Source: a virus. From it: DNA of 64,000 nt. The DNA lies in IMG/VR virus record IMGVR_UViG_3300009124_000002, positions 1 to 64,000 of that record; one strand, 5' to 3'. Shown piece after piece: positions 24,265 to 30,620 of this stretch; positions within the stretch are counted from its first letter, which is position 1, and each line of letters begins with the position of its first letter. The notes under the pieces were generated by a model, which was given only the letters and a program-made list of their open reading frames with translations, searched no databases and was not told the origin of the DNA. A program made the translations under genes and the position numbers.

Positions 24265-24858
24265 ATGGCATCTTACCTAGAGAAACTGGAAATCGAAGCA
24301 TTTCGTAAGGGGATTACTCCAAGAACCAAGCAGTCCTTGGATTGGTTTCGCAAGCGCGTTCAGAACATCAAGAATGTCAACCGCAGAGAACTACTGAAGG
24401 ATGATGCTCTGATTCAACGTCAGAAAACCGTGGTAGGAAAGATGTTTCTCTATAAGTATGATGCCAAGACCAAGGCAACCCTTCCATACTTTGACCAATA
24501 CCCACTGATATTCATGGTAGATCGTGCTCCAAAGGGTTTCTATGGCATCAATCTACACTACTTGCCACCAAATGTTCGTGCTGTTTTCTTTGATAAGATT
24601 ACTGATGTGGCAAATAATAATAAATTTGATGAGACAACAAAGCTAAGAATTTCATATGACATTCTCAAGGGTGTTACCAAGTATAAAGAATTTGCACCCT
24701 GCTTTAAACGCTATCTCACATCACAAATGAAGAGCAAACCCATCCTTGTTCCTGCAAGTGAATGGGAGGTTGTTCTCTTTTTACCATTCGACTCCTTCAG
24801 TGGAGCATCAAGAAACAAGGTCTGGTCAGACTCAAGAAAAATAATCAAAGGAAGATAA
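24265..24858 (+). CDS. conserved virion-type protein, unassigned
   Basis: A 197-residue protein. KMFLYKYDAKTKATLPYFDQYPL and GFYGINLHYLPPNVRAVFFDKI are patterns I associate with an unnamed conserved protein of marine T4-like phages lying next to gp4 and gp54. No enzyme motif is visible. Its stop overlaps the gp54 start (TAATG). It is probably a tail or head assembly protein; I cannot equate it with a T4 gene. Confidence 0.65.
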   Translation: MASYLEKLEIEAFRKGITPRTKQSLDWFRKRVQNIKNVNRRELLKDDALIQRQKTVVGKMFLYKYDAKTKATLPYFDQYPLIFMVDRAPKGFYGINLHYLPPNVRAVFFDKITDVANNNKFDETTKLRISYDILKGVTKYKEFAPCFKRYLTSQMKSKPILVPASEWEVVLFLPFDSFSGASRNKVWSDSRKIIKGR

Positions 24859-25550
24859 TGGGACTCCTCGATAGAATCACAAATACGGTAAATCCATCAA
24901 CGATTGATGACTTCAAGTCCACTGTTTCAAAACATGCTGGATTAGCCCAGAGTAATCGCTTTAATGTCATTATCACCCCACCCACACAAAGTCTTTTCAA
25001 TTTGGATTTGCAAAATATTGCATCTCAAGCACTGAGTGGAAACTTCGGATTTAATGACCTGATTAATGACCCGCGTGATGTGGCATTGCTATGTGAATCC
25101 TGCTCCTTTCCCGGTAGACGATTGAATACCACTGAGTATGCATCCAATCAAGACTGGTATACTAGAAATACCCCTACAGGATACAATACAGAACCTATAA
25201 CATTCTCCTTTATCCTGACCAATGATTACTACATGAAGAAATTCTTTGAGCGATGGATTGCATCTATCGTTGACCAGAATACGTATCTGGTTGCTCATGA
25301 TGATACATATAAGACAGATGTGATTATTCAAGCACTGGATCGTAACAATCGCCCCATCTATGGTGTAAAATTGATTGAAGCGTTTCCAACTGAGATTACT
25401 GCTGTTCAGCTAGATAATAATGCGACTGACCAGATTACAAAACTGTCAGTCACTATATCATACACTGATTTCAAACCAGAAGGTGCCATTGCAAGCCTGC
25501 TTGGTGGAATCAAAAACCAAGTTACCGGATCACTAAGAAGATTGATATAA
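24858..25550 (+). CDS. gp54: baseplate tail-tube initiator gp54-like
   Basis: A 230-residue protein. The ATG at 24858 is preferred to an upstream in-frame start because it has an AAGGA site and overlaps the previous stop. It has tube-protein character: QSNRFNVIITPP, CESCSFPGRRLNTTEYA and EPITFSFILTNDYYMKKFFERWI. gp54 with gp48 primes tube polymerisation. The Cys pair CESC is notable. The order gp4-X-gp54-gp26-tape measure supports it. Confidence 0.7.
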   Translation: MGLLDRITNTVNPSTIDDFKSTVSKHAGLAQSNRFNVIITPPTQSLFNLDLQNIASQALSGNFGFNDLINDPRDVALLCESCSFPGRRLNTTEYASNQDWYTRNTPTGYNTEPITFSFILTNDYYMKKFFERWIASIVDQNTYLVAHDDTYKTDVIIQALDRNNRPIYGVKLIEAFPTEITAVQLDNNATDQITKLSVTISYTDFKPEGAIASLLGGIKNQVTGSLRRLI

Positions 25551-25553
25551 GTT

Positions 25554-26246
25554 ATGCCACTACCTACACTTGAGACACCGAAATATACCCTCACACTACC
25601 ATCCACAAAACAGAAGATTGAATATCGCCCCTTCTTGGTGAAGGAGGAGAAAGTTTTGATGATTGCCCAGCAATCTGATGATTCAAACACAATGTTTCGT
25701 GCAATGATCGATATCGTTGATGCTTGCACATTCAATAAACTTCTGGTCGATAAGTTATCCAATGTGGACCTTGAATACATCTTTCTGAAACTCCGAGCCA
25801 AGTCTGTTGGAGAAACAGTAGAATTGAACATGATTTGTGATGAATGCAAACATGAGAATCCAGTCTCTATTGATATCGATGATATCAAGGTGAAATATTC
25901 TCGCAAGAAAGTAGAACCAACGATTCAACTCACAGATGACGTTGGTGTTGTCTGCACATATCCTACAGTGAAATCTGTGATGCGAGTCAAGAAGGATGAC
26001 CCTACTGAGATTATTTCTTGTGCCATTGAGTCAATCTTTGACAAAGAGAACACATACAATCTTGAGGAGGAGAGTCCAGAGGAGATTAACAAGTTCATTG
26101 AGACCCTGAACTTTCAGCAGTTGAAAAAGATTCAGGATTTTATCGATACTGCACCAAAGATTCAACATACAGTGAAATTCCAGTGTTCAAAGTGTAATAG
26201 CGAGAATAGCAAGTTGGTTCAGGGAGCAGAAAATTTTTTCGTCTAA
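25554..26246 (+). CDS. gp26: baseplate hub assembly protein gp26-like (zero-frame product)
   Basis: A 230-residue protein of the T4 gp26 family: YRPFLVKEEKVLMIAQQS near the start and two CxxC pairs (CDECKHENP at about 103 and CSKCNSENS near 214) that look like zinc-binding knuckles. It acts in hub assembly and, by position just before the tape measure gene, is the likely counterpart of the tail assembly chaperone of other phages. The last codons hold a slippery A AAT TTT site, and the -1 frame continues for 63 codons. Confidence 0.78.
   Translation: MPLPTLETPKYTLTLPSTKQKIEYRPFLVKEEKVLMIAQQSDDSNTMFRAMIDIVDACTFNKLLVDKLSNVDLEYIFLKLRAKSVGETVELNMICDECKHENPVSIDIDDIKVKYSRKKVEPTIQLTDDVGVVCTYPTVKSVMRVKKDDPTEIISCAIESIFDKENTYNLEEESPEEINKFIETLNFQQLKKIQDFIDTAPKIQHTVKFQCSKCNSENSKLVQGAENFFV
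26231..26237 (+). promoter_or_regulatory. -1 frameshift slippery heptamer A AAT TTT
   Basis: The heptamer fits X XXY YYZ in the gp26 frame, three codons before its stop. Fifteen bases downstream, CACACGAT (26253-26260) and ATCGTGTG (26277-26284) form a perfect 8-bp stem that could stimulate slipping. Confidence 0.65.
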
Positions 26247-26428
26247 GCCTAGCACACGATTCTCTCTCTAATTACTATCGTGTGAATTTTGGGCTGATGC
26301 AACATCATAAATACTCGTTGAGTGATCTTGAAAATATGCTTCCTTGGGAGAGGGAAGTCTACTGCGCTATGTTGATTAAACACATAGAAGAACAAGAAGA
26401 AAAGAACAAAAAAGACTATGGCACTTGA
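26237..26428 (+). CDS. gp26 frameshift extension (gp51/GT-like C-terminal part)
   Basis: The -1 frame after the slippery site runs 63 codons without a stop to 26428, eleven bases past the tape measure ATG. It reads FRLSLAHDSLSNYY, then HKYSLSDLENMLPWEREVY and ends in an acidic/basic helix (EEQEEKNKKDYGT). Sequence of this kind, WEREVY plus a charged helix, is typical of the T part of G-GT tail chaperones and of gp51-like proteins. There is no good independent start except an ATG at 26336. The fusion would be 291 residues. Programmed frameshifting before the tape measure gene is well known in long-tailed phages such as lambda. Confidence 0.65.
   Translation, partial: FRLSLAHDSLSNYYRVNFGLMQHHKYSLSDLENMLPWEREVYCAMLIKHIEEQEEKNKKDYGT
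26306..26313 (+). promoter_or_regulatory. T4-like late promoter (CATAAATA)
   Basis: CATAAATA inside the frameshift extension, about 105 bases before the tape measure ATG. It could give an extra transcript for the tape measure gene or for the ATG at 26336. Confidence 0.4.
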
Positions 26429-27845
26429 CGCTACAATATCCTTACTGGAAAAGCAGAATACCATTCTGGAAAGTATTAGCACCCAACTCCAGAATCAACA
26501 GAATGCTGTAAGGGCGTCTAAATTAGCAGACAAGGAGGACGCTGATAAGAATCGTGCATTGATGGAAAGGATTGCATCGTCTCTTGGTGGTGGTGGTGGT
26601 GGTAGAGGTGCTGCTCCAGCCGCTGATTCTGGTGGAGGTGAGACCAAGAAGGGTGGGATACTTGGTGGATTACTGGTTGGCGCGATTGGGGTTGTTGGTT
26701 CAATTGGAGCGATACTTGGAGCGAAAAGCCCTCTTGGTCTTGCGGTTACAAAATTCAAACAAAGCGGAGTTGCGAAAACATTTGTCAGTATCTTTAAAAG
26801 AATTAGTGGATTCTTTGGTAAGGAAGGTGGAGCCAAAAAGCTTCTAGGGAGAATCAAAAAAGCAAAGCCTGTTCTCAAGAAAGGACTCAAGTTTCTTGGA
26901 AGACTCTTTAGTAGAGTATTTGGTATCTTCACTGCGATCACTGCATTTTTTGATGCCAAGAAAGCTTTTGATGAGACGGAGGGGGGTTTCTCAGAGAAGT
27001 TGGGGGAAGCACTGAAGGAGTTTGGAGCAAGTGTTCTTGGTGCAATCTTTGGATGGATTCCAACACTTGCTGGTCATGTTCTGGAGTTCTTTGGTGCCCC
27101 TGAATGGCTTACAGACATGCTCAAAGAGTTTAATCTGAAGGAGGAAATCAAGCTTCTAGTTGATACGCTTTCGCTTATGCTTGAGGATGCCATCATGTTC
27201 TTCATGGATGGCTCCTTTACCAAGATGTTCACTGAGGATATCCCAAATGCAATTGGAGAATTCTTTGGCAAACTTAAGGACTGGTTTAATGAAAATGTCA
27301 TAGCACCAATAAGGGACTTCATTGACAACAACGAGGCAATTCAAACCGCAATTGTTGGATTCAAGGTATTGTGGAATGCAATCAAGGCAGTTCCAACTTT
27401 CATTGAGAACTTCATCTTCAATATTGTAAATGCAGTGAAAGGGGTTCTTGCAAATATCGTATCATGGCTGGATGGGATAGTAATTGGAGGTAAGAGAAGT
27501 ATTGCTGGCAAAGTCCTCAGTAAAGTTGGAGTGGACTTACCGGAGTTTTCTATGGGGGATATTATTCCCGAATCGATTAGGACTTTTGTCAAGGCACCTG
27601 ATTTGAAGACAAAAGAGATAGACCTAATGGAAGGAGTCGATATGACAAAACTCCAGAACATTCGGGCAGCAAATGCAGCAAATACGGTATCTGGTGTAGC
27701 AACACAACCAGTGGTCATCAATCAGATTTCAAACGATAATAGAAGCACTATCTCTGCACCAACTTCAAATACAAGTATTGCTGCCCAGACTGAGGCAGCG
27801 GAGAGGCAACCGAGACAAAGACGCAGTGGTGTTGGCAGCAGATAA
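26418..27845 (+). CDS. gp29: tail tape measure protein (gp29 position)
   Basis: A 475-residue protein. The N-terminus is a coiled coil (ISLLEKQNTILESISTQLQNQ), followed by a Gly-rich linker, hydrophobic Gly/Ala segments (GGLLVGAIGVVGSIGAILGA; FGASVLGAIFGWIPTLAG) and long amphipathic helices rich in Phe, Lys and Asp. This is the composition of tape measure proteins, which set tail length and pass into the host membrane. It follows gp26 and its frameshift product, as expected. T4 gp29 is 590 residues, so the tail may be shorter. Confidence 0.75.
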   Translation: MALDATISLLEKQNTILESISTQLQNQQNAVRASKLADKEDADKNRALMERIASSLGGGGGGRGAAPAADSGGGETKKGGILGGLLVGAIGVVGSIGAILGAKSPLGLAVTKFKQSGVAKTFVSIFKRISGFFGKEGGAKKLLGRIKKAKPVLKKGLKFLGRLFSRVFGIFTAITAFFDAKKAFDETEGGFSEKLGEALKEFGASVLGAIFGWIPTLAGHVLEFFGAPEWLTDMLKEFNLKEEIKLLVDTLSLMLEDAIMFFMDGSFTKMFTEDIPNAIGEFFGKLKDWFNENVIAPIRDFIDNNEAIQTAIVGFKVLWNAIKAVPTFIENFIFNIVNAVKGVLANIVSWLDGIVIGGKRSIAGKVLSKVGVDLPEFSMGDIIPESIRTFVKAPDLKTKEIDLMEGVDMTKLQNIRAANAANTVSGVATQPVVINQISNDNRSTISAPTSNTSIAAQTEAAERQPRQRRSGVGSR

Positions 27846-29611: not shown

Positions 29612-30349
29612 TCATTTCTCTTCAGCAACCCAAGTGACCTTTTGGGTGTATGTGATGCCACTGATAGTGATGCTAGTCACTTCTTCGGGAAGGCTCAAAA
29701 GGATTTCTGGGTTGTCGTTGGGTTTCGATTTTTCATCCCCATAGACCTGTGCATTATCAGAGACCACTGCATCCCCAGAGACCTTTGCATACCCAGAGAC
29801 CTTTGCATACCCAGAGACTTCTGCATCGCCATAGACCACTGCGTTCCAAGAGACCACTGCATTATGAGAGACCACTGCGTCCTCATAGACCTTTGCATCC
29901 CCAGAGACTTCTGCATTACCATAGACCTGAGCATTATGAAAGACCACTGCATTACCAGATACCCTTGCATTGCCACAAATCTCTGCATTATCAGAGACCC
30001 ATGCATACCCAGAGACCACTGCATCCCCATAGACCTTTGCATCCCCAGAGACCACTGCGTTCCAAGAGACCACTGCATTATGAGAGACCACTGCGTCCTC
30101 ATAGACCTTTGCATCCCCAGAGACCACCGCGTTCCCAGAGACCACTGCATCCCCAGAGACCACTGCATTTCTAAAGACCTTTGCATTCCCAGAGAGCCAG
30201 CAATTGCCTTCCTGATCCAAGTTCTTCTCGGACTCAATGAATCCACCAAGCTCACCCCTCTTGACGTTACTGAAATCCTTCAGGGCACGAATGCGCTTCA
30301 GATTCTTGTTATTCGGGTGAGTTTCGTTTGTGATTTCGTATTTTCTCAT
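29612..30349 (-). CDS. YdcK-like left-handed beta-helix repeat protein 1
   Basis: A 245-residue protein; start MRKYEITNETHPNNKNL at 30349 matches the start of its paralogue at 46387. The N-terminus carries the YdcK-like cap (RIRALKDFSNVKRGELGGFIES..NL), followed by about 150 residues of six-residue steps of the type GNAxVSGDAxVY that form a left-handed beta helix. The C-terminus is a small beta domain (ITISGITYTQKV). Such proteins occur in bacteria and phages; their function is unknown. No acyltransferase active site is evident. Internal DNA repeats are present. Confidence 0.75.
   Translation of the reverse strand: MRKYEITNETHPNNKNLKRIRALKDFSNVKRGELGGFIESEKNLDQEGNCWLSGNAKVFRNAVVSGDAVVSGNAVVSGDAKVYEDAVVSHNAVVSWNAVVSGDAKVYGDAVVSGYAWVSDNAEICGNARVSGNAVVFHNAQVYGNAEVSGDAKVYEDAVVSHNAVVSWNAVVYGDAEVSGYAKVSGYAKVSGDAVVSDNAQVYGDEKSKPNDNPEILLSLPEEVTSITISGITYTQKVTWVAEEK
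29837..30125 (-). repeat. internal repeats in beta-helix gene 1
   Basis: A block of about 75 bp starting near 29837 recurs near 30053, both coding VSGDAK VYEDAVVSHNAVVSWNAVV. The spacing keeps the 18-base hexapeptide period. Confidence 0.6.
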
Positions 30350-30350
30350 A

Positions 30351-30620
30351 TCAGTAAAGTGTATTGACTGGAGACTCATCCTTGATGCAGTTAAGCTGAA
30401 CAGACTCAGCACGAAGTCGATCCTTGAGATTACCGGAGACGAGCTTGGCTAGATCTTCTGGTTCAATCTCATGATCGTCGCAGACCTGCATCAGTGCCTC
30501 CATGTAAGTCAACTTATCTCTCTGGACATGCAGCAGCACTTCACCGATTAGCCTATTTTGATTGATACCGATTTCCATTTCAATATCCAGCTTCGTTTGA
30601 ATTTCTTGTAGATTACGCAT
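30351..30620 (-). CDS. gp33: late-transcription coactivator (gp33-type)
   Basis: An 89-residue protein. KLTYMEALMQVCDDHEIEPEDLAKLVSGNLKDRLRAES closely follows the pattern of the phage late-transcription coactivator family (TYLEAV..YCEENxIExExVAKLI...LKxKIxAEA). This protein bridges RNA polymerase carrying the late sigma (gp55) and the sliding clamp in T4. A C-terminal hydrophobic end (SPVNTLY) could be the clamp contact. It explains how the NATAAATA promoters in this window are read. Confidence 0.7.
   Translation of the reverse strand: MRNLQEIQTKLDIEMEIGINQNRLIGEVLLHVQRDKLTYMEALMQVCDDHEIEPEDLAKLVSGNLKDRLRAESVQLNCIKDESPVNTLY

Follow-up and report, generated by a model that had tools for sequence, protein, structure and literature searches.

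Evidence for a programmed -1 ribosomal frameshift joining a gp26-like gene to a gp51-like extension upstream of the tape measure gene of an uncultivated marine phage

Background

In phage lambda two proteins, G and GT, are produced from one gene through a -1 frameshift near its 3' end; this gene lies immediately before that of the tape measure protein. A 2016 review lists T4 as the exception to this G-T frameshifting (PMC5009743). The tail-assembly chaperones of T4-like phages, named TAC-N and TAC-NC, were identified by Vladimirov, Gautam and Davidson (Virology 2022, 566:9-15; as cited in PMC12846349 and PMC10885494). Later papers that refer to this work credit it with poly-T -1 frameshift signals in the TAC-N genes of T4-like phages (PMC12846349) and cite it for the presence of separate short and fused genes in some of these phages (PMC10885494).

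Here we analyse a 64,000-nucleotide stretch of DNA (positions 1 to 64,000 of the IMG/VR record IMGVR_UViG_3300009124_000002), which in its full length is referred to as the window. In the window a gp26-like gene ends shortly before the tape measure gene and the space between them is occupied by an open -1 frame. The question raised by this locus is how the -1 frame is expressed, i.e. as a continuation of gp26 or as a gene of its own. An earlier note on the same DNA had proposed that a programmed -1 frameshift joins gp26 to a gp51/GT-like extension before the tape measure gene, and this is the reading best supported by the data presented below.

Results

The gp26-like gene and its neighbours

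The locus comprising the gp26-like gene and the extension is situated between the tail tube gene and the tape measure gene (Table 1); the latter is identified with moderate confidence from its phrog_58 match. For the gp26-like protein the PF12322 profile match covers residues 8-229 with 200 bits (cut-off 24.5), and T4-type gp26 aligned with the gp26-like family at 99.8% (hhalign). Its predicted structure (pLDDT 91) matched T4-like baseplate hub proteins in a viral library, including gp26 of Aeromonas phage 25, while the predicted fold gave no match in the PDB at E<=0.001 and a sequence search of solved structures returned nothing significant, with weak matches to unrelated proteins only. One gp26 match was found in the 119-kb record, which is possibly incomplete. 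The 3' end of the open reading frame reads ...GCA GAA AAT TTT TTC GTC TAA.

Table 1 Features at the gp26-like locus (positions in the window)
Feature	Position	Strand	Support
Tail tube family gene, directly upstream of the gp26-like gene	24858..25550	+	phrog_45 tail tube E=1e-37; PF06841 E=8e-10
gp26-like gene, zero frame; putative short tail-assembly chaperone (TAC-N), 230 aa	25554..26246	+	PF12322 T4_baseplate E=4e-59; phrog_150 baseplate hub E=3e-63
A AAU UUU, overlapping U UUU UUC; in frame, not the conserved site	26231..26237	+	Sequence; cluster comparison
Slippery heptamer U UUU UUC (zero frame TTT TTC; -1 frame TTT TTT)	26234..26240	+	xxT TTT TTN in 60/64 gp26 clusters
Extension in the -1 frame (TAC-C, gp51-like), 62 codons CGT..ACT + TGA	26240..26428	+	phrog_634 E=7e-28; dN/dS 0.05; 58% mean column identity
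Zero-frame stop TAA, one codon past TTC	26244..26246	+	Same one-codon spacing from the slippery codons in 55/60 clusters
Predicted stimulatory hairpin	26246..26295	+	MFE -19.1 kcal/mol, z -3.1
Tape measure protein gene (probable)	26418..27845	+	phrog_58 tail length tape measure protein E=4e-7

A conserved slippery heptamer at the end of gp26

Relatives were collected in six scans of viral contigs; with annotated phages added, they provided 190 usable loci, which were grouped into 64 gp26 clusters at 75% amino acid identity. In 60 of these clusters the gp26 gene ends in xxT TTT TTN, and the taxa represented include Kyanoviridae, several Straboviridae, Pootjesviridae, Emdodecavirus, Menderavirus and Chakrabartyvirus. 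The four clusters that do not have the T6 site are two Ackermannviridae-type clusters and two of T4-type gp51, in which the extension is already in frame. Among the 60, the heptamer is TTTTTTC in 46, TTTTTTT in 12 and TTTTTTA and TTTTTTG in one cluster each. The codon preceding TTT is AGT, TCT or GAT (16 clusters each), AAT (8) or GCT (4), i.e. the amino acid varies (S, D, N, A) and the third base is T in every case. Under the codon usage of the genes themselves, a third-base T followed by TTT in all clusters has log10 P ~ -29, a value that is overstated since the clusters are treated as independent. Elsewhere in the same genes xxT TTT TTN is present in frame 6 times in 13,566 codon positions. 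With 24 occurrences in 119 kb, TTTTTTC as such is no rarity and its count is uninformative; the evidence for the heptamer therefore lies in its place and its conservation. A search of Rfam for a known frameshift element gave no match.

The earlier note had correctly located an in-frame A AAT TTT near the end of gp26, and had taken it to be the slippery site. This latter part does not hold: the AAT before TTT that A AAT TTT needs is present in only eight of the 60 clusters, and since relatives keep T TTT TTN behind varied codons we discarded A AAU UUU as the site that functions here. What the relatives conserve is U UUU UUC, which has the X XXY YYZ form near the 3' end of TAC-N. The comparison with relatives that had been suggested as a check upheld the -1 relation, which is kept wherever the two parts are in different frames, and replaced the heptamer.

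Given that the conserved element is a homopolymer of T6-T7, it could also be used for slippage by RNA polymerase, in which case some mRNAs with an altered U-run would join both parts in one frame and be read by ribosomes in the normal way. In bacteria, transcriptional slippage is usually efficient only on longer runs, of some 8-9 A or T, whereas most of the sites (46/60) are T6 followed by C. Moreover, the phase of xxT TTT TTN is that of tandem-tRNA slippage, although this phase is inherited, and structured RNA shortly downstream (see below) fits ribosomal frameshifting. Taken together we regard transcriptional slippage as very unlikely.

The -1 frame encodes a conserved protein domain

A stop 34 nt before that of gp26 bounds the -1 frame on its upstream side, and from there the frame remains open up to the TGA at 26426-26428. 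Counted from 26237 it has 63 sense codons, which is the number originally given, and it does end just past the tape measure ATG (26418), which overlaps the extension by 11 bases as read from the sequence. The predicted fusion product is ~291 aa. Within the 119-kb record the extension is present in the -1 frame only, and a T4-type fused in-frame gene is not found there.

The protein-like content ascribed to this frame is borne out by profile matches and by the pattern of substitution. The extension matches positions 55-115 of phrog_634 (baseplate hub assembly catalyst, i.e. gp51) and aligns with the C-terminus of T4-type gp51 at 97.0% (hhalign). For relatives 3-22% apart, 2195, 703 and 5789 substitutions fall on first, second and third codon positions, respectively, when the -1 frame is read, that is 5789 of 8687 are at third positions, and the naive dN/dS of the region (Table 1) compares with 1.36 and 3.7 for the remaining two frames. 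The extension is under strong purifying selection as a protein. Its mean column identity exceeds that of gp26 (46%) and its conservation reaches the slippery Phe-Phe. The structural model is helical with moderate confidence (pLDDT 76) and has one significant viral match, an unnamed 182-aa protein. In every relative where the extension is in another frame than gp26 the relation is -1, in most with U UUU UUN and in Ackermannviridae with a shorter T run; in the T4 type there is one open reading frame.

These data bear on two other explanations. According to one, the -1 frame is open by accident or because an assembly error has split one gene, which is a general risk in metagenomic contigs; nothing beyond that general risk speaks for it at this locus. 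The same junction is present in near-identical contigs from several other samples, on which ground we rejected an assembly error, and it is kept in 60 clusters from many families with the -1 frame under the selection described above. We consider the probability of this explanation to be negligible.

According to the other, gp51 is a separate small gene with its own start (GTG 26282 in the window; an ATG at or after the gp26 stop in relatives), translated by re-initiation or translational coupling. It is annotated as such in many records, and the phages nt-1, EniLVp02, phiM9 and Yut2 have TAATG or TGATG, in which a possible start codon shares bases with the gp26 stop; in phages of this kind translational coupling may add free extension. 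However, 33 of the 60 clusters lack ATG, GTG or TTG within the first 12 extension codons, and a start codon with a Shine-Dalgarno-like sequence is present there in only three. The earliest candidate in the window, the GTG, is positioned inside the conserved domain and has no ribosome site. Conservation up to the slippery Phe-Phe also argues against a separate start, which would leave the conserved xxT TTT without an explanation. On the start-codon and conservation evidence we rejected a separate gp51 with its own start for the window, where it is highly improbable. Relatives with two separate genes, each with its own ribosome site, and no slippery site, which the earlier note had named as the finding that would count against a frameshift, were not encountered.

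RNA structure downstream of the heptamer

A perfect 8-bp stem had been described 15 bases downstream of the presumed site. This stem exists (26253-26260 with 26277-26284), but it constitutes the upper part of a larger hairpin of 15 bp with a 16-nt loop, in which 26246-26260 is the 5' strand and its partners are 26277-26284 and, beyond a bulge of 4 nt, 26289-26295, and the base of which lies 5 nt past U UUU UUC. Its folding energy was equalled in 1 of 200 shuffles. Among the relatives, the 60 nt downstream of the site are more structured than controls taken from elsewhere in these genes, with a mean z of -1.66 compared with -0.27 (Wilcoxon p = 9e-6, n = 59). In the P-SSM2 clade a stem of ~11 bp is near-invariant. 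The stem of the S-PM2 clade (10-11 bp) includes one compensatory change, and 93% of its pairs are kept vs 30-56% when the partner strand is slid. A universal downstream hairpin is unsupported; the structures are clade-specific and two loci (L013 and L029) have no notable structure. The hairpin in the window is common only to near-identical contigs, and in L008 one pair of the lower helix is broken. It is absent from a 69%-identical relative (L011), and its role as a frameshift stimulator is therefore putative.

T4 genes 26 and 51

In T4-type phages gene 26 and gene 51 are in divergent orientation. Profile comparison indicated that T4-type gp26 corresponds to the short domain alone, with no match to the extension. 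T4-type gp51, on the other hand, aligned with the gp26 family at 98.7% (hhalign, profile positions 8-201) and with the extension at 97.0% (positions 199-253). As judged from these alignments, T4-type gp51 is a natural in-frame fusion of a gp26-type domain and the extension. T6 is not present in any of 13 T4-type gene 26 sequences, and a Phe-Phe retained there is encoded by TTC TTT; the slippery site is missing in these genes, where the shift is not needed. Hence, the T4 hub assembly chaperones gp26 and gp51 are homologous to the short form and to the short form plus extension, respectively, and differ from the window in being encoded by two separate divergent genes with no slippery site.

Variants in Ackermannviridae and related phages

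Ackermannviridae and Vibrio D506-type phages have no T6 at the gp26 end (L097:2226-2426, L098:2190-2387, L205, L206, L208 and L209). These are 2050H1, Kamild, KP6, BX-1, phiA8-29 and an unclassified Vibrio D506, all of which have NTT TTY (ATT TTC, GTT TTC, CTT TTC or GTT TTT) near the zero-frame end and the extension still in -1. NTT TTY is a shorter and possibly different shift site, and it resembles the GTTTTT site reported for Vandenendeviridae (PMC12846349).

Discussion

We conclude that the gp26-like gene in the window very probably gives rise to a short and a long tail-assembly chaperone through a programmed -1 ribosomal frameshift. What the sequences show is the slippery site and its conservation, the -1 relation, the purifying selection on the extension, the fusion in T4 gp51 and, for most relatives, that the extension has no usable start of its own. 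Most ribosomes would read gp26 to the TAA and produce the short form, the equivalent of lambda gpG. In a minority of ribosomes, tRNA-Phe on UUU and UUC of U UUU UUC would slip back one base to UUU UUU, an event that may be aided by the hairpin starting 5 nt downstream; these ribosomes would resume at CGU (26240) and translate the 62 codons of the extension, giving the long form equivalent to gpGT. By analogy with lambda, many short and few long forms would coat the tape measure protein encoded next door, the extension would recruit the tail tube protein, and neither chaperone form would stay in the virion. Slippage on the ribosome, its efficiency and the role of the hairpin are likewise predictions from the sequence.

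The chaperone function is suggested by the position, the two-form architecture and T4 genetics, because similarity to lambda G or T is not detectable in either part (hhalign probability 0.2% and 0.1%, respectively, using single lambda sequences). The two systems share their arrangement, including an overlap of the extension with the tape measure start (8 nt in lambda and 11 nt in the window). They differ in slippery site, which is G GGA AAG in the former and U UUU UUC in the latter, and in tail type, which is flexible for lambda and contractile for the phage in the window. A GTTTTT frameshift site has also been reported in the TAC genes of Vandenendeviridae and Andersonviridae (PMC12846349); these resemble the window in having a poly-T -1 site at the TAC-N end, followed by a -1 frame that is uninterrupted ahead of the tape measure gene, and their T run is shorter.

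The locus is a further example of a mechanism already described for T4-like phages and not a new mechanism. The abstract of the 2022 study reportedly states that frameshifting is kept in several T4-like groups and that T4 uses genes 26 and 51. The suggestion in the earlier note that the mechanism would here be extended to a T4-like gp26 is thus out of date, given the T4-like chaperones identified in 2022 as that study is represented in later papers. As far as the account is relayed there, the window agrees with it in every tested respect: gene family, position and arrangement are the same, and the window phage is uncultivated and marine and probably outside those that the 2022 study examined. 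The present analysis works out an explicit rule for the heptamer, tests at the level of codons and of selection, the hairpins specific to single clades and the variant in Ackermannviridae; the 2022 paper may already contain some of these.

With respect to T4, profile comparison shows gp26 (long known as a hub subunit) and gp51 (as the hub assembly catalyst) to be the likely counterparts of the short and the long tail-assembly chaperone. This correspondence agrees with the 2022 paper, as cited by others, and the window offers a site and a hairpin that can be tested in a marine group of high abundance. We are evenly divided about a wider scenario, in which the U UUU UUN shift is ancestral for the chaperone pair, hairpins were rebuilt clade by clade inside the extension coding sequence, the site was shortened to NUU UUY in Ackermannviridae, and in the T4 group the shift was replaced by duplication and fusion, such that T4 genes 26 and 51 would represent the short and the long product of a single ancestral gene with a frameshift.

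Most annotations of public T4-like genomes lack the long chaperone, because the extension is either entered as a gene 51 in its own right or left out. As a rule for annotation, xxT TTT TTN just before the gp26 stop with the extension in -1 can be used. The extension is unannotated in KJ019110 (L083), HQ634177 (L090) and OP380604 (L091), and the phages whose records omit it include ACG-2014b and S-CAM1; other cyanophage records begin the extension at a chance ATG, as a separate gp51. Both kinds of record can be attributed to the absence of a separate start.

Additional open reading frames near the locus

An extra open reading frame of 110-140 aa separates the extension from the large gene that follows (tape measure) in Pelagibacter phage HTVC008M (L210:1703-2035), and one in the same place in the Sinorhizobium phages phiN3 and phiM9 (L085:2394-2813 and L100:2368-2790). 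The structural region of the window also includes a repeat-rich open reading frame (29612-30412, - strand) with many V-V-S-x-[ND]-A units, which lies near a probable single-strand DNA binding protein gene and looks like a hexapeptide-repeat (left-handed beta-helix) protein.
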